Shown here piece after piece: positions 4,499 through 13,498 of a stretch of DNA of 63,906 nucleotides. The stretch is taken from the NCBI GenBank assembly GCA_018823795.1, contig JAHJGZ010000007.1, positions 1 through 63,906 on the forward strand. The letters are read 5' to 3'. Origin of the DNA: Candidatus Omnitrophota bacterium. GTDB taxonomy: Bacteria > Omnitrophota > Omnitrophia > JAHJGZ01. Below the pieces are notes generated by a model. The model was not told the DNA's origin. It saw only the letters and a program-made list of their open reading frames with translations, and made no database searches. Each line of letters begins with the position of its first letter. Position 1 is the first letter of the stretch. A program made the position numbers and the translations under genes.

Positions 4499-4559
4499 GA
4501 GTCGTTTGCATTGATTTAATCTTTCCTTTTTATCGAAGGCGTCCTTGACATTGAAAAAA

Positions 4560-4808
4560 TGCCAAGTGTCTTTTGGGTCTCCTGACTTACGGATCATTTT
4601 ACTAATCGTACCTTCCCGGAATGAGCAAGTAAAAAGGAAAAAAGATAAAGGATAAAACAAATACAGCCTTTATTTGTTTTTCCTTTTACCTTTATCCTTT
4701 ATCCTTGTCTCCCCCAGTGGCCATTACGACGTTCATCCCCGTTCACAGTGGCGCAACCGCGTGGGATTTTCACCCAACTTCCCCGTATATCAAAAATCAT
4801 AAGTGGCG
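4560..4808 (-). promoter_or_regulatory. Cobalamin (adenosylcobalamin-class) riboswitch with an expanded arm
   Basis: Read on the minus strand, the conserved blocks appear in order: GGGGAAG (about 4785-4779), GGTGAAAATCCCACGCGG, GCGCCACTGTGAACGGGG, GGCCACTG, GGGAAGG (about 4617-4611), and the B12 box AAGTCAGGAGACC (about 4589-4577). Partial complementarity between GCCA..TTTTG at the 5' end and CAAAA...TGGC at the 3' end can form P1. The hairpin between CCACTG and GGGAAGG is normally short but here spans about 94 nt (4621-4714), made of GATAAAGG-type repeats that fold back on themselves. Because the core blocks are intact, ligand binding is probably retained. A terminator follows. Confidence 0.96.
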
Positions 4809-4811
4809 GAA

Positions 4812-4840
4812 ATTATACCTCTTTTGCCGCTTCGTGTACA
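4812..4840 (-). promoter_or_regulatory. Sigma-70-type promoter for the corrinoid importer operon
   Basis: On the minus strand, TGTACA (4840-4835, four of six matches to TTGACA) is separated by exactly 17 bp from a perfect TATAAT (4817-4812). The predicted start is near 4805, which is the first base of the riboswitch. It sits just after the PEP carboxykinase stop codon (TAG at 4853-4855), so the importer is a separate transcription unit. Confidence 0.8.
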
Positions 4841-4852
4841 TCCTTTTTTATG

Positions 4853-6733
4853 CTACTGACTATGTCGAAACGCAGGCGGAAATAAAGAGTCTCCATGTTC
4901 TTCGTGTGCCCGCTCAAGCCGCTTTTTTTGTTCATCAAGTATGGTAAATAAAATATCAGGTACATTCTTCTTATGTTTTGTATAAAATTCTTTAATTCGC
5001 GCAATCTTCGCACAATTTTCCAAAACCCTTATAGAAAACTGCTTCAGATAATCCTCTTCTGTATATTCTTTATTGAGTACTTCCTTAAATAATCGTTTCA
5101 GATCTTCATATTCCGGAATAGATCCGGTAGGCAATTTAATCGCATCGACATCCCCATGGACACGCAGTTCCATCCATTTTATCCATACACGCTTGTCCTC
5201 CATAGCGGTTAAATAGTTCCCCTCTTTATCTTTCTGGAAGTAGTTGACGAGAAAGATACGCGGCGGTTTCTCAATCCCTTTAACAATCTGTAAATTGTTA
5301 TTAATATACGTTCCCAGATAAATTGAAAGAAAGTCAAGGTTCGACATCGGATTTATTTGCCGGACCCCTTCTTTTCCTAAGGTCGCCGCTGTTGTCTCCG
5401 ATTCCAGTGAAGCTCCCATGGTTATGATCCCATGCTCCCAGTTAAATGCTTCTTGTACGGGTGGTAAAATACTCGAATCTCTGCCGCCATAAATAATACC
5501 GCGTACGGGAACGCCGTGTGGATTATCTAATTCACTATCAGTATTGCTGAGATCATATAAACTAATGGTGTAGCGCGCATTTTTATGTGCAGAGGGAATC
5601 TCTTTCCCGTCAGCATCTTTTTTCCCCTTATGCCATTGTCCAGAAAAATTTATCCCCTTTTCAGGAGCCGGTCTTCCGTCACCTAACCAGCGGGGATGAT
5701 TATCATCACAGACCAATACATTAGAAAAAATAGCCTGTCCCGGCGTTGAAAGAACCTTCCAAATAACCGGATCATCCTTGTCGTTAACATCCTGAATAAT
5801 GCCGAAGATCCCACACTCAACATTGACTCCATGCAAGGCGTCCTTATATTTTCGTAAATAGGCTATATCGTCACCGATAATCGTTTCTCCGGGTAACATT
5901 GCTGTCGATGTTTTTCCGCACGCACTGGGAAAGGCACCACTAAAATAGGTTTTCCTGCCCTTTGGCCCATGTACTGCCATAAGAAACATGTGTTCAGCAA
6001 GCCATCCTTCACGAGATGCCTTCTGAATAGCCAGCCGCAGGGAAAGCTTCTTAAGACCAACGGTATTGCCGGCATATTGCGTATTTGTACTGTATACAAT
6101 ATCCTCTTCAATATCAATGTAGACTCTCCGCTTATCAACATTCTTACTCACACCATTTTCTAAATCGCCAGCACTGTGCACATAGCGGAAAAATGCTTCT
6201 GATGAGCCAATTTCTTTAAACTGTTCATACCCAGTTCGACAGAGTATGTATTCTGAATGCCCGACATAGCTTGAATCGGTAAGCTGAACACAGGGAATAG
6301 AAAACTCAGACCCCGTCGGGCCAAGACAAAAGAACAACACATACATCTCTTTTCCAACCATTATATCCTTGAGAATCGAACGAATTTCTTCTATTCCCGG
6401 CCCTTTTTCTATTGCATTTGGTACTGACGTTAAATCAGCTCCGTGTGGTAAAAGATACTTCGTTTGTGCTTTATCTCGCGCTTGATCCTGCGCCCCGTCA
6501 AAATGGATCGTATGCCCCTTAATGGCAAGACTTTTTTCTTCTCCATTCTTCAACGCTTGTTGTCGTATATAGGCCCTATCTTCCTTTGCATCTGTACCTA
6601 CATAGATTGAATTCGGGTTACATAATTCGGCATAGGATGCAACAAATTCATGTAGTTTCGTATTCCGAAGCGCCATAAGCTTCTCGTAGCTTGCCGGGTT
6701 GCATTTTTCTTTTAATAATTCGTTATTCGTCAT
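4853..6733 (-). CDS. pckG: Phosphoenolpyruvate carboxykinase (GTP)
   Basis: GTP-dependent enzyme interconverting oxaloacetate and phosphoenolpyruvate in the cytoplasm. The 626-residue length is slightly above the usual 590-620. Diagnostic parts are the P-loop FPSACGKTSTAML with its reactive Cys, the metal-binding GETIIGDDIAYLR segment, and RGIIYGGRD with GVPVRG further along. The start at 6733 (MTNNELLKEKC) is preceded by an AAAAAAGGA-like stretch. It appears to be a stand-alone unit ending in TAG, which shows that TAG is an ordinary stop in this genome. Confidence 0.97.
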   Translation of the reverse strand: MTNNELLKEKCNPASYEKLMALRNTKLHEFVASYAELCNPNSIYVGTDAKEDRAYIRQQALKNGEEKSLAIKGHTIHFDGAQDQARDKAQTKYLLPHGADLTSVPNAIEKGPGIEEIRSILKDIMVGKEMYVLFFCLGPTGSEFSIPCVQLTDSSYVGHSEYILCRTGYEQFKEIGSSEAFFRYVHSAGDLENGVSKNVDKRRVYIDIEEDIVYSTNTQYAGNTVGLKKLSLRLAIQKASREGWLAEHMFLMAVHGPKGRKTYFSGAFPSACGKTSTAMLPGETIIGDDIAYLRKYKDALHGVNVECGIFGIIQDVNDKDDPVIWKVLSTPGQAIFSNVLVCDDNHPRWLGDGRPAPEKGINFSGQWHKGKKDADGKEIPSAHKNARYTISLYDLSNTDSELDNPHGVPVRGIIYGGRDSSILPPVQEAFNWEHGIITMGASLESETTAATLGKEGVRQINPMSNLDFLSIYLGTYINNNLQIVKGIEKPPRIFLVNYFQKDKEGNYLTAMEDKRVWIKWMELRVHGDVDAIKLPTGSIPEYEDLKRLFKEVLNKEYTEEDYLKQFSIRVLENCAKIARIKEFYTKHKKNVPDILFTILDEQKKRLERAHEEHGDSLFPPAFRHSQ

Positions 6734-6832
6734 TAGAACATCCTTTTTTCTTGTGATTTAAGTATCCGAGAATTGTGTCGTTATAAAATAGTATCAAAAA
6801 ATTGAAATTTATCAACTACTATTTCAAAACGC

Positions 6833-7465
6833 CTAAAATCCTTCCTCCTGTAACAATTGTGCCGTAAGAGAAGATTTCTCTCCTTTTAAATGTTGTTTAA
6901 CATACTTCGATAGAATATCGACTTCAATATTCACCCGATCATTAACTTTCAAAAGAGTGAATGAGGTGTTTTTAAAGGTATGAGGAATAATGACAACGGA
7001 AAAAGAATCGGAGCTCATCTCCTGGATAGTTACACTCACACCATCAACTGCCACCGACCCCTTCATCACCATGTTGTTTCGTATCGCAGGTGAAACACCG
7101 ATGTGTAAAAAAATATCCTTTTTATTCTTTACAATTCTTTTTATCTGTCCCATCCCATCAACATGCCCCTGAACCCAATGCCCGCCAAGCCGGTCACCAA
7201 TACGTAATGCTCGTTCTATGTTTACGAAAGCGCCTTTCTTGAGTAACCCTATAGTAGTCACCGCAAGCGTCGGTTGTGATGCATCAGCAAAAAACATATT
7301 TTTCTTAAAACCGGTAACCGTAAGGCATACACCGTTCACTGCAATACTTTCCCCTATTTGAAAGTCGTTCCACAGTGTATCAACAGCAATGCACACCTCA
7401 TGCATATCAGATTTTGTCTTTTTCGCCTTCAAGGTACCAACCTTTTCAATTATCCCCGTAAACAT
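6833..7465 (-). CDS. ribE: Riboflavin synthase, alpha chain
   Basis: Last step of riboflavin synthesis: dismutation of two 6,7-dimethyl-8-ribityllumazines. The 210-residue protein has the expected two lumazine-binding repeats, the first starting MFTGIIEKVG with VNGVCLTV, the second GHWVQGHVDGMGQI with VDGVSVT. GGAGG lies 6 nt before the ATG. It is the last gene of the FMN-riboswitch operon and is separated from ribD by a membrane glycosyltransferase gene, an unusual interruption. Confidence 0.96.
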   Translation of the reverse strand: MFTGIIEKVGTLKAKKTKSDMHEVCIAVDTLWNDFQIGESIAVNGVCLTVTGFKKNMFFADASQPTLAVTTIGLLKKGAFVNIERALRIGDRLGGHWVQGHVDGMGQIKRIVKNKKDIFLHIGVSPAIRNNMVMKGSVAVDGVSVTIQEMSSDSFSVVIIPHTFKNTSFTLLKVNDRVNIEVDILSKYVKQHLKGEKSSLTAQLLQEEGF

Positions 7466-7497
7466 CGATCCTCCAGTGAAACATAATGATTATACGG

Positions 7498-9033
7498 TTA
7501 CGCTGCTTCTTCATCAGATTTGTTTAGACTGAGGTCATACAGATAGAGTGATGCACCAATAGTCTTCATTGAACCAACCCTTTTGCCTAAAATATCTAAA
7601 TAATATAACATAAGCATTTCTTCATCAACGCCTGACTGACTATAGACGCCACAAAACACCATCCACACTCGTTTTTTGCCACGCAATAGAGATAACCGAT
7701 ACCAATATTGGTTCCAATCATCATAGCTGGGCATTATACAATGGATATTCTTTTCTTGCTTTTGTATAGCATTATATCTTTTAATATAGTATTGAAACGG
7801 AGCATTAGCCCAATGATACAGACATATATAATCACCCTCTCTAATATGCTCGTCGAGAACAGCCATAACCTCCCGTACCTCCCAAGCACGATATTTATTA
7901 ACAACCTGTTGACTCGTTGTAATCAAAGAAGGCAAAATCAACAATCCTCCTATTATTATTCCTATTTGAAACCGGTTTCGCGAAAGAAGTGTAACAATAA
8001 AATAAAACCCATTTGCTATGATTAATAACGCTAGAGGAACTAAAAATAATAACAATCTGCCACTAAACGGATATTTATGTAAACTGTATGCTATTAAAAC
8101 AAATGGTACTGGTGAAAGCACAATAAGTAAAATCCTCTTTCTCCTTACATACATTGCAATGCACCCTATTAAGAATAGGGCAATCCCAAGACCATGAAAA
8201 TATATTCCTAAAGGATCTGAAAAAAACGATACCAAAAGGTCTGAAAAGATTTTTATATCAGCAAAAGTTTTAAACGGAAGGGGCACAAAATGCCAATCCC
8301 AATAATTTACCAAATAATTAAGTTTTTCGATAAATCTAAGAGATACTACATAGGTGCTGATGAAACTTATTATCCACATGAGCCCTATCGGCACAAGCTG
8401 GGCCATTTTTCTCCACTGTTTTTTATAAAAAGATATGACAAAAAAAGCACATCCAATACCAGCTAAAACAAATACGGCCGGATACGAAAAATAAATTGCA
8501 CATGCACCAATCGCACTATAAAAAATCCCCCGAGAGACAGTCATCTCCTTTTCTTGTATGTGTGCACACATAATCAATAGGAGTAATGTCACGACCACAT
8601 CACTCATATACGGTTTTGCTTCGATGGAATAATTAATTAATTGCGGGGAAAGTGAAAATAAAAAAACTGCAAAAGGAACGGTCCATTTGATGAGATACTT
8701 TTTCGCGACTGTATAGAATAAAAAGAGTGACACAATACCACATACAAAGGGCCACAATCTAAGAAAATACTCATTATTGATAAATGTCTGAATACTACTT
8801 TTTTCAACAAAGACAAAACCGATCGGATAGTGGACTTTTTGTATAAGGGACAAAAAGGAAAGTCCCCCAAAATTTAATTCATTTGCGAACCGTGCTTCAT
8901 CTCCACTCAGTGATCTATTCGAAATAAAGGCATATGTTCTCAGGAAACATCCAAGGTATATTATTATCCGACAGAGTACTGTTGAATGAAGCGCTTGTAT
9001 CATTAATTCTTTACATCGAGATTGCGTAGACAC
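7498..9033 (-). CDS. Multi-pass membrane glycosyltransferase (GT39/GT83-like)
   Basis: A 511-residue protein with many hydrophobic segments and the PMT/ArnT-class N-terminal loop SLSGDEARFANEL, whose Asp-Glu pair is the expected catalytic/lipid-phosphate site. The first segment is followed by a luminal loop (HYPIGFVFVEK), and an extracytoplasmic tail follows residue about 380. Such enzymes move a sugar from a polyprenyl-phosphate carrier to lipid or protein outside the inner membrane. The start is GTG at 9033, with AAGGAG 7 nt upstream. It lies between ribD and ribE, yet no riboflavin role is expected; co-expression is probably incidental. Confidence 0.75.
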   Translation of the reverse strand: MSTQSRCKELMIQALHSTVLCRIIIYLGCFLRTYAFISNRSLSGDEARFANELNFGGLSFLSLIQKVHYPIGFVFVEKSSIQTFINNEYFLRLWPFVCGIVSLFLFYTVAKKYLIKWTVPFAVFLFSLSPQLINYSIEAKPYMSDVVVTLLLLIMCAHIQEKEMTVSRGIFYSAIGACAIYFSYPAVFVLAGIGCAFFVISFYKKQWRKMAQLVPIGLMWIISFISTYVVSLRFIEKLNYLVNYWDWHFVPLPFKTFADIKIFSDLLVSFFSDPLGIYFHGLGIALFLIGCIAMYVRRKRILLIVLSPVPFVLIAYSLHKYPFSGRLLLFLVPLALLIIANGFYFIVTLLSRNRFQIGIIIGGLLILPSLITTSQQVVNKYRAWEVREVMAVLDEHIREGDYICLYHWANAPFQYYIKRYNAIQKQEKNIHCIMPSYDDWNQYWYRLSLLRGKKRVWMVFCGVYSQSGVDEEMLMLYYLDILGKRVGSMKTIGASLYLYDLSLNKSDEEAA

Positions 9034-9052
9034 TCTCTTTCTCCTTAATTAT

Positions 9053-10129
9053 TCAATATATCGGATATCCCTCAAATAAATAATCATTTCCGCTTTTCGA
9101 ATAAGAAACATTTCGAAAGCGAATTGCTTTCTTTATACATGCCACGCCATTTCCTTCAACTGAAGTCGGCGCGTGCATACCGCCAATGATCAACGGAGCA
9201 CAAAACAAAAACATTTTATCAACTAATTTTCGTTCAAAAAAAGAAGCGGCCACATTCCCCCCACCTTCAACTAAAACGGTTCCTATATGAAAATCGACTA
9301 ATCTTTTCAACACAAAGGCTACATCTATCTTTTGCCGGTACAAAGGGGCTTGAATGACTGAAATTCCCTTTTTTTGATACAATGCTATTTTACGAGAAGA
9401 AACTTTTTTAGAAACAACAATAATTACCTGATCACGTGTGGCATAGTGAAATACCTTCTTAGTAAGAGGAATTTCTCCTTGTGTATCTAAAATAACCCGC
9501 GCCGGATTCTTCGTGGATGAAACAAATCGCACCGTAAGGGATGGATCATCATAAAGCACCGTTTGTTTTCCGACTAAAACAGCATCAACATTTTTTCTTA
9601 GTTGATGCACACCGGTGCGCGACGTAATACCGCTAATCCACTGTGAATCGCCCGTTCGTGTTGCACTTTTCCCATCAAGGCTCTGAGCCATTTTGACGGT
9701 CACAAAGGGGCGTTTTTTACTCATACGAGTAAAAAAGGCTTCATTCTGTTTTTTTATCTCATTTTTGAGCAGACCAACTGAAACAGCTATATTATTTTTT
9801 CGTAATATACGAACACCGCGCTTGTGATGCTGTGGATTTGGATCAAAGCTTCCAATAACAACTTTTTTAATGCCGCTTTGTATGATCGCCTCAGTACATG
9901 GCGGTGTTTTTCCCTGCGTCGAACAGGGTTCTAACGTTACATATAATGTTGCGCCGTTGGCCGCTCGCCCCGCCCGTTTCAGTGCAACTATTTCTGCATG
10001 AGGCCCGCCAAAAAATGCATGATAGCCACGAGAGCGGATGACGCCATCCTTCACGACAAGCGCACCGACTAACGGATTAAGCTTTGTATGCCCTCTTCCG
10101 CGTTCGGCAAGCCAGAGTGCTTCACGCAT
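9053..10129 (-). CDS. ribD: Bifunctional pyrimidine deaminase/reductase of riboflavin synthesis
   Basis: The N-terminal deaminase domain carries the zinc motif HAE with PCSTQGKTPPC, and the C-terminal reductase domain begins around FVTVKMAQSLDGK. It deaminates and then reduces the GTP-derived pyrimidine intermediate. ATG at 10129 (MREALWLAERG) has GGAG 6 nt upstream. ATG at 10165 (MKISQKTRDG) would restore the N-terminal residues usual in the family but lacks a ribosome site and overlaps nusB by 26 bp. Total length is 358-370 residues, normal for RibD. Confidence 0.95.
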   Translation of the reverse strand: MREALWLAERGRGHTKLNPLVGALVVKDGVIRSRGYHAFFGGPHAEIVALKRAGRAANGATLYVTLEPCSTQGKTPPCTEAIIQSGIKKVVIGSFDPNPQHHKRGVRILRKNNIAVSVGLLKNEIKKQNEAFFTRMSKKRPFVTVKMAQSLDGKSATRTGDSQWISGITSRTGVHQLRKNVDAVLVGKQTVLYDDPSLTVRFVSSTKNPARVILDTQGEIPLTKKVFHYATRDQVIIVVSKKVSSRKIALYQKKGISVIQAPLYRQKIDVAFVLKRLVDFHIGTVLVEGGGNVAASFFERKLVDKMFLFCAPLIIGGMHAPTSVEGNGVACIKKAIRFRNVSYSKSGNDYLFEGYPIY

Positions 10130-10139
10130 GAAGGCTCCA

Positions 10140-10559
10140 TCACGAGTTTTTTGTGATATTTTCATGGTGATTGATATGATCGAGGACACCGTTTACAAAT
10201 TTTCCTGAATCTTCTTGAGAATATTTCTTTGCAATATTAACCGATTCATTAATCGTCACTTTGGGGGGAATATCAGGCATAAAAAGCAGTTCATAGGCAC
10301 CAGAGCGCAGGATATTTTTATCCAAGATCGCCATACGTGAAAGATCCCAGTTCTCGGTATGACGTACGATAGTCTCATCAAGTATCTTTGTCTGAGCAAG
10401 AACTCCCTGAATAATCCGCTCAGCAAATGCTTGCACTTCTGCATCCACAGGATTATGTTCCCAAAATTGTTCTCGGATACTATCAAAATCTTCTTTGACT
10501 ACTTCGAGCTGATATAAAACCTTTAGTGCGCATTCACGTGCAATTGTTCTCTTCCTCAT
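10140..10559 (-). CDS. nusB: Transcription antitermination factor NusB
   Basis: All-helical RNA-binding protein of the rRNA antitermination complex, about 139 residues from the chosen start (MRKRTIARECALKVLYQLE), which has AAGGA 8 nt upstream at 10559. The C-terminal family landmark is VTINESVNIAKKYS followed by KFVNGVLDHI. The ribH-nusB pairing is common in bacteria. It sits inside the FMN-riboswitch operon, so its expression may respond to flavin unless an internal promoter exists. Confidence 0.94.
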   Translation of the reverse strand: MRKRTIARECALKVLYQLEVVKEDFDSIREQFWEHNPVDAEVQAFAERIIQGVLAQTKILDETIVRHTENWDLSRMAILDKNILRSGAYELLFMPDIPPKVTINESVNIAKKYSQEDSGKFVNGVLDHINHHENITKNS

Positions 10560-10581
10560 AAAAATGTCCTTACGATAATGG

Positions 10582-11055
10582 TTATTTTTTCTCAAAAGCG
10601 GAAAGGAGATTTGCCATTTCTATAGCAGACTCGGCTGCGTGAGCTCCTTTATTACCACTCTTGGCCCCCGCACGGTCGATTGCCTGCTCTAAGGTATCAG
10701 TTGTGATGACACCAAAAACCACCGGTATTCCTGTGTCAAGAGAAATGCGCGCAATGCCCTTTGCAAGCTCACTGGACACATATTCAAAATGCGCTGTTTC
10801 ACCACGAATCACTGCCCCCAGTGCAATCACTGCATCAAATTTGTTACTCTGCGCCATTTTTAAACAGGCAAGCGGAACTTCAAAAGAACCGGGAACCCAT
10901 ATCACTTCAATGCTGTTATCCGCTACGCCGGAGCGCATAAGACGGTCAATAGCACCATCCAAAAGGCGTTTCGTAATAAATTCGTTAAAACGAGAAACAA
11001 CAAGTCCAAAACTTTTTCCTTTACCGGTCAACGTACCTTCATATATCTTTGCCAT
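10582..11055 (-). CDS. ribH: 6,7-dimethyl-8-ribityllumazine synthase
   Basis: Condenses the RibD-pathway pyrimidine with the C4 phosphate from RibBA. The 157-residue length is typical. Active-site segments are [24 protein letters not shown] (with the catalytic His) and [16 protein letters not shown]. The start follows an AAAGGAGG ribosome site. The spacer before this site is a tandem GATAAAAGTTAAAA repeat that follows the IVP gene. Confidence 0.97.
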
Positions 11056-11069
11056 ACGACCTCCTTTGG

Positions 11070-11107
11070 TTTAAAAAGATAAAAGTTAAAAGATAAAAGT
11101 TAAAACA
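11070..11107. repeat. Tandem GATAAAAGTTAAAA repeat next to the IVP gene
   Basis: Two and a half copies of a 14-bp unit (GATAAAAGTTAAAA on the plus strand) lie directly after the IVP stop codon and before the ribH ribosome site. Together with the GATAAAGG-type tract on the other side (11510-11562), it brackets the IVP gene. Confidence 0.75.
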
Positions 11108-11108
11108 A

Positions 11109-11489
11109 TTACACATCTTTACGAAAATGTACTTTCTTAGATATACTAGCAAAAATACTTTTTAACTCGAATGACTCTTGTAATAATCTTTCCAACTCTT
11201 TGCCTTCGGTGATCTCTACTGCCTCAATAATCCTTAACCAATAGTTGCTTTCCTTTGACTCCCGAAAACAAATACTAATCTTATATTTAAAATCATCTTT
11301 ACTAAAGGCTCCTTCTGCTTCCTCATAATTTGCCCCTATTGACGTAGCGGCTTTTGCGAGTTGATATCGAATAATATCATTTTCTTTTGATAGTCTTATT
11401 TTCTTTAAAAATCTTATTACCGCTACTGCAAAATCAAATGTTCTTTCCTTTAAATCCCTTCCTTTCGTACCGTTTTTTTGCCCTTTCAT
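11109..11489 (-). CDS. Four-helix-bundle protein of the 23S rRNA intervening-sequence (IVP) family
   Basis: A 126-residue all-helical protein. It matches the IVP/four-helix-bundle family in layout: LKERTFDFAVAVIRFLKK, then QLAKAATSIGANYEEAEGA (the most conserved block of the family), KDDFKYKISICFRESKES and NYWLRIIE. Members occur inside insertions in 23S rRNA hairpins in other bacteria, and the related Avd protein of diversity-generating retroelements binds RNA. No biochemical role is proven. AAGGAAC lies 5 nt before the ATG. It splits the riboflavin operon between ribBA and ribH and is bracketed by low-complexity repeats. Confidence 0.9.
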   Translation of the reverse strand: MKGQKNGTKGRDLKERTFDFAVAVIRFLKKIRLSKENDIIRYQLAKAATSIGANYEEAEGAFSKDDFKYKISICFRESKESNYWLRIIEAVEITEGKELERLLQESFELKSIFASISKKVHFRKDV

Positions 11490-11509
11490 CTCGTGTTCCT
11501 TGTATATTT

Positions 11510-11562
11510 TTTATCCCTTGTCTTTTTTCTTTTTTTATCCTTCATCCTTTATCCCTTATCCT
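11510..11562. repeat. GATAAAGG-type low-complexity tract upstream of the IVP gene
   Basis: The plus strand shows TATCCTT/TATCCCTT words repeated (ATCCCTTGTC, ATCCTTCATCC, ATCCCTTATCC). The same words (TTTATCCTTTATCCTTGTC) make up the insertion inside the cobalamin riboswitch at 4690-4710. The tract reaches the ribBA stop codon. Confidence 0.7.
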
Positions 11563-12753
11563 TTACAGTAAGTGTCCTAGTTTTTCTTTTTTTGTTTGTA
11601 AATATTTTCTATTATAAACTGTAGATTTTACGTGAAGCGGAATCCGTTCAACAACTTCCAGTCCAAATCCTCCAAGTCCGATAATTTTTCGGGGATTATT
11701 TGATAATAATCTGATCTTCTTGACCCCGAGTTCGACAAGAACTTGCGCTCCTATCCCGTAATCACGCAGATCCGGCTTAAATCCTAACCGTTCGTTTGCT
11801 TCAACGGTGTCCATCCCCTTATCCTGCAGTTCATACGCTTTAATCTTATTAATAAGCCCGATTCCTCGGCCTTCTTGACGAAGATACAGAACGATGCCGT
11901 TACCCTCACGATTGATCATATCCATGGCAGCATAGAGTTGTTCTTGGCAATCACAACGCAGGGAACTTAATACCTCACCCGTAAAACATTCAGAATGGAC
12001 CCTGACAAGCATAGGGTCTTGTGTAATGGTTCCTTTAATCAATGCAATATGTTCTTTAGTATCAATAAATGACTGAAATGCAATAATTTTCCATTCACCA
12101 AAACGTGTCGGAAGAATTGCTTCTGAAACACGCTCAACTAATTTATCAAACGTACGCCGGTATTCAATTAATCGGGCAATGGTACTTATTTTTAAGCCGT
12201 GTTTTTTTGCAAAAATGAGAAGATCATCCATCCGTGCCATTGATCCATCATCATTCATAATTTCACAAATCACCGCTGAAGGACGAAGCCCTGCAAGACG
12301 GGCTAAATCAACGCTTGCTTCTGTATGACCAGCACGGACAAGCACCCCCCCTTTTTTCGCTCGCAAAGGAAAAATATGTCCCGGCACCGTCAGATCCGAG
12401 GAACTATATTGAGGATTTGCCAAAATATCAACCGTGCGTGCACGGTCTGATGCAGAGATACCGGTGGTAATACCCGCTTTCGCATCAACTGAAACGGTAA
12501 AGGCAGTATTGAAACTATCCTCATTCCGTTCCACCATATCTTTCAATTCAAGCGCTTGAAGTCGTTCTTCTGTTACGGGCACACAAATAAGCCCGCGGCC
12601 GTATTTTGCCATAAAATTTATTTTTTCCTTATCCACATGCTGCGCGGCAAAAATAAGGTCCCCTTCGTTCTCCCGTGATTCATCGTCGGTAAGAATGACC
12701 ATCTTTCCTTGCTTGATATCTTCTAGTATTTCTTCTATTGAGTTCAATTCCAT
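11563..12753 (-). CDS. ribBA: Bifunctional 3,4-dihydroxy-2-butanone-4-phosphate synthase / GTP cyclohydrolase II
   Basis: Both entry steps of riboflavin synthesis in one protein of about 396 residues. The N-terminal RibB domain has [11 protein letters not shown] and [16 protein letters not shown]. The C-terminal RibA domain has the zinc cysteines in [15 protein letters not shown], the substrate motif RQEGRGIGL and the Arg finger region. The start is set at [17 protein letters not shown] (12753) by family alignment. No ribosome site is visible: the 5' side is a GATTACACAGATT-type repeat whose edge supplies the start codon. The longer frame to 12813 reads through this repeat and is rejected. 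Confidence 0.96.
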
Positions 12754-12795
12754 GATTACACAGATTTTTAAAAAGATTACACGGATTACATGCTG
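12751..12795. repeat. GATTACACAGATT repeat between GxxExxY gene and ribBA
   Basis: Plus strand CATGATTACACAGATT-TTTAAAAAGATTACACGGATTACATG. The ribBA start codon lies at one end and the GxxExxY stop codon at the other. A near-identical word order (CATGATTGCACAGATTAG-AAAAAGATTACATAGAT) fills the variable arm of the FMN riboswitch at about 13298-13332. Confidence 0.8.
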
Positions 12796-13160
12796 TATCT
12801 TTTCACCTGACAACTTTTATTGCTAAAATTAATTAATAATCCTACTTTAAGGTGTGACGCTCTAAGATATGACCGTATCTGATACTTAAAAACATCTGGC
12901 ATATAGCCCACCACCGCCTTTATTTCTACTATTACTTTATTCTCAACAACTAGATCGACAACGCAATAGCCAACTTTTCTTTTTATATATGACATATCAT
13001 ATCGCTTCTCGGTTTCATAGGACAATCCTTCGTCAGCAAAAGCAAGGAGAAGCGCTTTGTGGTATAACTTTTCGCTAAATCCCGGCCCTAATTCAGAATG
13101 AACTTTATAACAACATGCAATGATGCGTTCCGTTAAAGAATCTCTGTTAGTTTTATTCAT
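12786..13160 (-). CDS. GxxExxY family protein
   Basis: A 124-residue protein with the hallmark [13 protein letters not shown] (the GxxExxY motif), [17 protein letters not shown] and a C-terminal [16 protein letters not shown]. The EIK and upstream Glu resemble a PD-(D/E)xK nuclease core, but the function of the family is not established. It is the first gene after the FMN riboswitch terminator, flanked on both sides by GATTACACAGATT-type repeats. No ribosome site is visible. The gene probably entered the riboflavin operon leader with those repeats. Confidence 0.9.
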
Positions 13161-13196
13161 AATCTAGGTAATCTTTTTCTAATCTTTCTAATCATC
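13161..13196. repeat. GATTAGAAAAAGATTACCTAGATT repeat upstream of the GxxExxY gene
   Basis: On the minus strand the tract reads GATGATTAGAAAGATTAG followed by AAAAAGATTACCTAGATT, then the ATG of the GxxExxY gene. It is the same family as 12751-12795 and as the insertion in the FMN riboswitch. Confidence 0.7.
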
Positions 13197-13197
13197 A

Positions 13198-13233
13198 AAA
13201 AAAAAGAGACCTGAGGACAATCCTCGGGTCTTT
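13198..13233 (-). terminator. Rho-independent terminator of the FMN riboswitch
   Basis: On the minus strand GACCCGAGGA-TTG-TCCTCAGGTC forms a 10-bp stem with one C-A mismatch, followed by CT and nine T. It starts a few bases after the 3' end of the FMN aptamer, as expected for flavin-induced premature termination. Confidence 0.93.
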
Positions 13234-13237
13234 TTTT

Positions 13238-13498
13238 TTATCTTCTCCCATCCAGACTATACTGTCGGCTTCAGAATTACACTGAATCAAGCTAAAGCAT
13301 GATTGCACAGATTAGAAAAAGATTACATAGATAATCCCTCTTTTCTTACTGCTTAATCATCCTCGCGCTTCGCGGGCTTTCACCGCCGGTAGGGAATAGC
13401 AAATTCAATTACAAATTAAAAATTACGAATTCAAAATTAATTTTGAATTGCTCATTTTGAATTTTTCATTGAGCTCGCATCACCCATCCCCGAAGATT
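13238..13498 (-). promoter_or_regulatory. FMN riboswitch (RFN element) with two expanded arms
   Basis: On the minus strand, P1 is formed by ATCTTC (13496-13491) and GAAGAT near 13240-13246. Conserved blocks follow: GGGGATGGGTG, TTCCCTACCGGCGGT, GAAAGCCCGCGA, TGTAATTCTGAAGCCGACAG and GTCTGGATGGGAGAAGAT. Two tracts are inserted. About 90 nt of AT-rich palindromic sequence separates GGGTG from TTCCC, where the consensus hairpin loop has only a few bases. About 75 nt of GATTACATAGATT-type sequence lies in the arm after CGCGAAGC, which is naturally variable. The aptamer is otherwise clear, and it heads the riboflavin operon. Confidence 0.95.

Follow-up and report, generated by a model that had tools for sequence, protein, structure and literature searches.

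Inverted arrays of seven-nucleotide words bracket IVP genes across bacterial phyla and recur without a gene in riboswitch loops

Our analysis of a 63,906-nucleotide stretch of DNA from a Candidatus Omnitrophota bacterium (contig JAHJGZ010000007.1; hereafter, the window), together with 115 IVP loci that span many bacterial phyla, confirmed that inverted arrays of degenerate words, 7 nt or sometimes 8 nt long, lie on either side of genes of the IVP family. The window holds one IVP gene, one gene of a second small family, GxxExxY, and two riboswitches with similar words in their loops. As a full explanation, which we consider probable, IVP genes would be the coding cores of widespread, very small mobile units whose ends are these inverted word arrays (hereafter, arms; words of 7 nt are called heptads).

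Results

Inverted heptad arms at IVP genes

We scored periodicity as the number of self-matches at a given offset, or lag, within a 35-nt patch (in some cases out of 30), and in the genome scan patches with at least 24 matches were counted. Strong lag-7 patches occur at 72 of the 115 IVP loci, as compared with 21 of 414 control windows taken from the same loci at a distance of 500–1100 nt (odds ratio 31, p = 3e-39), so that the flank similarity suggested by an earlier, sequence-only reading of the window extends across the family. A lag-8 patch is found in 17 IVP loci, and a subset of loci has 8-nt words. The identity of the genes is given by matches to PF05635 and, for locus L002, by a match to PDB entry 2gsc (E = 1.5e-23).

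The window genome (G000; 99% completeness) encodes 12 IVP and 4 GxxExxY genes. A scan of 644 kb of this genome recovered 13 such patches of at least 24 matches at lag 7 and 4 at lag 14, with 0–2 at every other lag from 4 to 15. Most of its IVP genes are flanked on either side by a word particular to the gene (AGTATAT, ACACTTA, TCATCCT, GATAGGT, GTAGTTT, TTTATCC), and the two flanks match as inverted repeats; direct-repeat flanks were rejected by the same comparison. Pooled flank identity at lag 7 is 0.352 in this genome, against an intergenic background of ~0.285. In 29 other genomes of the class, each represented by one IVP locus, the corresponding values are 0.374, 0.348, 0.333, and 0.296 at lags 7, 14, 21, and 28, and all other lags lie at 0.253–0.280. 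Eighty named loci, found with three close IVPs as query and drawn from the Omnitrophota, Planctomycetota, Nitrospirota, Bacteroidota, Cyanobacteriota, Patescibacteria, several proteobacterial groups, and others, give 0.367, 0.347, and 0.341 at lags 7, 14, and 21; inverted arms reach z ≥ 4 in 59 of them.

Both neighbours could be read for 109 IVP genes; 85 of these genes point the same way as both neighbours, and 1 is opposed to both. Median distances place the beginning of the left arm −1.5 nt from the upstream stop codon and the end of the right arm 8 nt ahead of the following start codon, giving a unit with a median length of 468 nt, in which the arms align over a median of 35 nt with 82% complementarity. 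The 5′ arm has more G than C at 75 of 86 IVP loci (p = 7e-13). The ratio of nonsynonymous to synonymous substitution (dN/dS) in IVP is ~0.10 over 57 pairs that are not mutually independent; judged by such comparisons, the gene is under purifying selection. IVP was found in 1 of 50,697 phage records and is therefore not phage cargo.

Empty sites and shared words

Comparison of filled and empty sites, the latter identified in cyanobacterial plasmids, shows that arm, IVP gene, and arm insert as one unit of 0.4–0.5 kb. At one site, Trichormus (L256, on plasmid C of T. variabilis ATCC 29413) and Scytonema (L255) are filled, and Nostoc linckia (L257) and Aulosira (L258) read GTAATTAACAAAT there, with flanks ~98% identical; L255 and L256 differ from each other by exactly two heptads (14 nt). 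The same site is occupied in Brasilonema (L264) by a heptad hairpin that has no gene and is flanked by two TAATTAA copies, and in Nostoc C052 (L259) by a decayed IVP. In another operon, the unit begins at the stop codon and has the edges GGTTCTA and GGATTCTA (L267 and L275, compared with L270 and L272–L274), and the gap that follows is filled by a different unit in L270. A plasmid of Picosynechococcus PCC 7003 (L266) has an IVP unit between cmr2 and cmr3 of a type III-B CRISPR (clustered regularly interspaced short palindromic repeats) operon; in PCC 7002 (L271), this gap is without one. Gene-less forms meet gene-bearing ones at two further loci: L260 has a gene-less array at the site where L251 holds an IVP, and L277 has a gene-less heptad element within an IVP gene. 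Finally, the element of L256, L267, and L269, arms included, occupies three unrelated operons. Given the empty and filled sites and the presence of one element in three operons, we conclude that the unit, with its arms, is mobile on an evolutionary scale.

Closely related IVPs share words despite unrelated neighbours (median score between left arms 30, against 16 for distant pairs), and distant IVP loci bear different words. GGGAAYA-like words are common to several cyanobacterial loci and one Gracilibacteria locus. When L218 (Desmonostoc) is compared with L251 (Nostoc), the left arm of their common IVP unit is found doubled, spacer before the gene included.

Arms also occur as copies without a gene. 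With the L267 element as query, a Desmonostoc genome yielded three whole or near-whole elements versus dozens of arm matches. Several of these matches are paired ~200 nt apart around near-identical gene-less interiors at unrelated sites (L336–L338 and others), a trait of miniature inverted-repeat transposable elements (MITEs); no target duplication is visible at L336–L338. Most of the arm-only copies have GTTCGATAAA at the right end, and the GATAAA of L277 was already part of the target, which hints at GATAAA as a target motif. Separately, in Moorena (L321, L325, L329, L333), GTCAGAA heptad arrays are embedded in another palindromic element; several of its copies have TATAGC...GCTATA ends in common.

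The units of the window

Every feature listed here lies on the minus strand; FMN stands for flavin mononucleotide.

4554–4815 (minus): cobalamin riboswitch aptamer RF00174 (62.8 bits, E = 3.6e-13), preceding a btuF-like gene
4620–4712 (minus): arm-only hairpin of heptads within an apical loop of this aptamer; arms 4634–4666 and 4668–4700; palindrome, a 90-nt insertion in the Rfam alignment, lag-7 score 24/30
11070–11562 (minus): whole IVP unit; arms and gene fill the ribBA/ribH gap from the ribBA stop codon to the ribH region
11510–11562 (minus): 5′ arm of the IVP unit, read from sequence (lag-7 patch 27/35)
11109–11489 (minus): IVP gene, 126 aa (PF05635, Pfam E = 7.5e-15)
11070–11108 (minus): 3′ arm of the IVP unit, AAAAGATAAAAGTT words on the plus strand (lag-7 patch 24/35; inverted match to the 5′ arm)
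12753–13196 (minus): whole GxxExxY unit, between the FMN riboswitch terminator and ribBA (inverted arms, score 39)
13159–13196 (minus): 5′ arm of the GxxExxY unit, from the inverted-repeat comparison
12786–13160 (minus): GxxExxY gene, 124 aa (PF13366, Pfam E = 1.8e-32)
12753–12795 (minus): 3′ arm of the GxxExxY unit, from the inverted-repeat comparison; overlaps the gene end and the ribBA start region
13228–13498 (minus): FMN riboswitch aptamer RF00050 with two loop insertions (66.0 bits over 13236–13416; P1 partner AATCTTC at ~13498 read from sequence)
~13399–13480 (minus): arm-only hairpin of heptads that fills the apical loop of P2 in the FMN aptamer (lag-7 patch 24/35 at 13390–13451; palindrome 13405–13472; fold)
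~13294–13362 (minus): GATTACA-type hairpin in another arm of the FMN riboswitch, related to the GxxExxY arms; seen as a 68-nt insertion in the Rfam alignment

The riboflavin operon runs FMN riboswitch, GxxExxY, ribBA (stop at 11563), IVP, ribH, nusB, ribD, where ribH and ribBA were assigned by Pfam and nusB and ribD were read from translations. The words that the sequence-only reading had placed beside both small genes are indeed present at the coordinates it gave, as inverted repeats: the inverted match of the IVP arms scores 33 (shuffled 18.8, standard deviation 3.2), and that of the GxxExxY arms stands against a shuffled score of 17.5 (standard deviation 2.8). Immediately after the ribBA stop codon come the words AGGATAA, GGGATAA, AGGATGA, and AGGATAA of the IVP unit's 5′ arm; the word of the right arm is a relative of the left-arm word and not an exact copy. 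A terminator-like hairpin with a T run (13198–13240) lies between the FMN aptamer and the GxxExxY gene, and because it separates the two, this gene is probably under the control of the FMN riboswitch. Between ribE and ribD, the operon also carries a gene for a 511-aa multi-pass membrane protein (7498–9033), which resembles mannosyltransferase-type glycosyltransferases.

Gene-less hairpins in riboswitch loops

The cobalamin riboswitch insertion, which had been described as made of the words that flank the IVP gene, is delimited by the RF00174 alignment and is a palindrome built of TTTATCC heptads. Among 30 cobalamin riboswitches, scores of at least 20/30 are reached only at lag 7 (two cases) and lag 14 (one), and the two at lag 7 belong to the window genome and to G021. 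The riboswitch of G044 (L105) has a weaker heptad hairpin, placed in the same loop as in the window. The riboswitch of G021 (L104) has heptad-like hairpins of AGCTTTC and CGTGAAG words in at least two loops and a AAAATCTA palindrome in a third; in G043 (L091), the same apical loop as in the window holds a 134-nt palindrome with ATTGCTTCGTCGCC and GGCTCCTCGCAATGAC words, which is a dispersed palindrome of quite a different kind.

The P2 apical loop of the FMN riboswitch contains AAATTAA/AATTCAA heptads that form a palindrome and that the sequence-only reading had not reported. Because this palindrome fills the P2 loop, the 5′ end of the aptamer lies at ~13498, and the covariance model aligned only to 13416, with a score slightly below the gathering score of 66.2. 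The other FMN insertion had been said to share its words with the GxxExxY flanks, and it does: the arm at 13159–13195 is 86% complementary to 13299–13335 over 37 nt. FMN and cyclic di-GMP riboswitch loops of relatives hold other hairpins, those in the same FMN loops being non-heptad, and we therefore regard these loops as permissive places.

We dropped the claim that heptad hairpins prefer RNA loops. A scan of riboswitches in the window genome and in relatives did find such insertions, in 2–3 of 30 cobalamin and 1 of 6 FMN riboswitches, with no clear excess of arm-only hairpins over other non-coding, intergenic DNA; an Rfam scan of contigs with stand-alone heptad patches found tRNAs only. Taken alone, the location of the riboswitch insertions may be due to chance. 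Thus, of the two preferences on which the sequence-only reading had staked its link, the one for genes was found and the one for RNA loops was not.

That reading had further proposed that elements with or without a gene insert into apical loops of structured RNAs. Both kinds do occur at one site, and arm-only elements do lie in riboswitch loops, but no IVP gene inside an RNA was found among the loci examined, in which the genes lie between co-directional protein genes. Likewise, no 23S motif was found in the IVP loci, and no Rfam RNA around the IVP gene in 15 atypical loci. As IVP genes lie between co-directional genes and not in RNA loops, the 23S rRNA intervening sequence with its IVP-family gene is the exception. 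In seven 23S rRNA genes found with a 24-mer, there was no IVP or heptad insert; two of the seven have long intron-like insertions. The 23S rRNA genes of G016 (L312) and G013 (L314) are interrupted in conserved regions by 627 and 322 nt, respectively; these insertions contain no heptads and resemble group I introns, that of L312 with an open reading frame.

GxxExxY units

By sequence comparison, GxxExxY genes share the architecture of IVP units, with longer word spacing. At about 18 of 29 GxxExxY loci, the arms are inverted at z ≥ 4; CGCAAAGG, ACGCGGATTA, and CGCCAAGA are examples of their words, which are spaced 9–12 nt apart. No period of 7 or 8 was detected in the arms of the 29 loci: lag 7 is at background, and lags 9, 10, and 12 are raised. 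The purine polarity of the arms is alike (17 of 19). At what is apparently one orthologous site, CGCAAAGG is paired with CTTTGCG in L293 and CGCCAAGA with CTTGGCG in L300; the two arms have changed together. Seven plasmid records with GxxExxY included no empty-site pair. Since the word classes of the two families differ (7/8 nt for IVP versus 9–12 nt for GxxExxY), the single common mechanism that had been proposed for them is not established.

Discussion

Under the explanation that we favour, the unit inserts whole and in sense orientation into the space between an operon gene's stop codon and the start codon that follows, as the empty sites show. The arms travel with the gene, can gain or lose whole words, as the one pair that differs by 14 nt shows, and drift fast to new words while both stay complementary, as examples show. 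Arm-only copies would be non-autonomous derivatives that spread to many non-coding places; in structured RNAs their survival would be confined to apical loops, and the window offers two riboswitches as examples. By analogy with 23S rRNA intervening sequences, the arms may pair in RNA as a long stem with the open reading frame in the loop, and such a stem might insulate the insert from its neighbours or allow its excision by RNase III. The IVP protein may recognise the arms, and the unit, like its arm-only copies, may depend on it to move or persist.

Several points weigh against this explanation. About one third of IVP loci are without strong arms, and a few close IVPs have none. The TAATTAA of L264 is the only clear target duplication; duplication is approximate at two sites and absent at the rest. 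The mobility seen in sequence comparisons is on an evolutionary scale only, and no movement was observed. The GTTCGATAAA ends of the Desmonostoc arm-only copies differ from IVP unit ends, and another enzyme may move these copies. RNA pairing and cutting of the arms, lastly, are inferred by analogy.

A bolder claim, which we hold to be possible though doubtful, is that each of the two proteins, IVP and GxxExxY, defines its own class of autonomous mobile units of extremely small size. In each class, a single protein of ~120 aa would recognise short tandem words rather than fixed ends, would insert the unit sense-wise at stop codons, and would move arm-only hairpins into intergenic DNA and RNA loops. 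If so, these two classes would have given rise to 23S intervening sequences, to the heptad stems of cyanobacteria, and to some of the extensions of riboswitch loops.

It is unlikely that the arms are instead ends recognised in trans by a Y1 transposase, either of the kind associated with repetitive extragenic palindromic (REP) sequences or IS200/IS605-like, with IVP as a passenger. Y1_Tnp genes are present in 38 of 49 genomes of the class, in numbers that correlate with those of IVP (rho 0.36, p 0.01, not corrected for genome size), and the gene-less Desmonostoc units, which end at GATAAA without visible duplication, together with the native GATAAA of L277, fit insertion beside a fixed short motif. 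However, a Y1 match is found in 27 of 33 IVP-bearing genomes and lacking from 6, some genomes being incomplete; IVP unit ends share no common motif; and purifying selection on IVP would be odd for a passenger.

We find it quite improbable that the arrays are host elements, whether they insulate translation or transcription or bind a host regulator, with IVP genes merely lying between them. Gene-less paired inverted arrays of heptamers and octamers have been described in Geobacter metallireducens and read as sites of a global regulator (PMC2700814). The 5′ arm has stop codons in 2.06 frames, against 1.71 when shuffled, which would suit an insulator. Yet the arms come and go jointly with IVP at empty sites, their words vary among loci of one genome, unlike the sites of one regulator, and they track the IVP lineage into unrelated contexts.

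Movement through RNA with a reverse transcriptase acting in trans deserves very little credence. IVP, which we take to be related to Avd, with a four-helix-bundle fold, would then act like the Avd of diversity-generating retroelements, and the strict sense direction and insertion in transcribed gaps would fit. We rejected dependence on a reverse transcriptase: the window genome has no RVT_1 (PF00078) despite its 12 IVP genes and near-full completeness, and reverse transcriptase occurs in 8 of 33 IVP-bearing versus 1 of 16 IVP-free genomes (p 0.24). Least of all can the arms be low-complexity tracts from slippage, tied to IVP genes and RNA loops by chance: arm-only arrays do occur away from IVP genes, as in the control windows, but for IVP the idea is refuted by the enrichment over those windows, by the near restriction to lag 7 and its multiples, with lag 8 in a minority of loci, and by arms that are inverted, not direct.

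Relation to known systems

What would be new is the view of IVP and GxxExxY genes as cores of word-array insertion units, joined to gene-less riboswitch-loop hairpins that were formerly seen only apart. No link of such arrays to IVP or GxxExxY was found in open full-text literature; most subscription journals lie outside that search, and priority is therefore uncertain. Very many bacterial genomes contain the orphan families IVP (annotated as 'four helix bundle protein' or 'S23 ribosomal protein') and GxxExxY, and reports of heptameric repeats go back decades without naming where the repeats come from; should the arms belong to the genes, these two questions become one. Length variation in riboswitches, group I introns, and rRNA would then have a source, and there would be reason for caution in reading such arrays as regulator sites.

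The nearest gene-bearing relative is the intervening sequence in the 23S rRNA of Coxiella burnetii, of 428 nt, which carries an S23p/IVP gene and for which cutting by RNase III has been reported (PMC4990558). An IVP-family gene, complementary ends, and small size are common to both; IVP units differ in lying in the gene gaps of operons rather than in rRNA helices, and in having heptad arms and many copies per genome with differing words. From the Avd of diversity-generating retroelements, they are set apart by the lack of a reverse transcriptase in the window genome.

In Geobacter metallireducens, paired heptamer/octamer arrays lie on opposite strands at variable distance and were read as regulator sites (PMC2700814), and Beggiatoaceae have arrays of TAACTGA repeats (PMC4679880). 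Like IVP arms, these arrays consist of 7- or 8-nt words; they were interpreted as regulator sites or regulatory repeats, with no link to IVP. Like MITEs and REP/REPIN elements, IVP units have complementary ends and short, gene-less palindromic copies that outnumber the gene-bearing ones, but their ends are tandem words that differ between copies, and there is no clear fixed target duplication.

Closest in their words are the cyanobacterial heptads. The P6b stems of the Nostoc trnL intron are built on heptanucleotide motifs that have repeatedly replaced one another (PMC4476775), and short tandemly repeated repetitive (STRR) arrays occur in cyanobacterial rnpB (Vioque 1997, as cited in PMC2858038). 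Both have degenerate 7-nt words on the two sides of a stem, in the apical part of a structured RNA, with word classes that have been replaced repeatedly, and IVP arms share with STRR arrays their tandem 7-nt words (lags 7, 14, 21, and 28). In these accounts, the second of which is a secondary citation, no gene or mobile unit had been tied to the heptads; here, such arrays frame IVP genes in many phyla.

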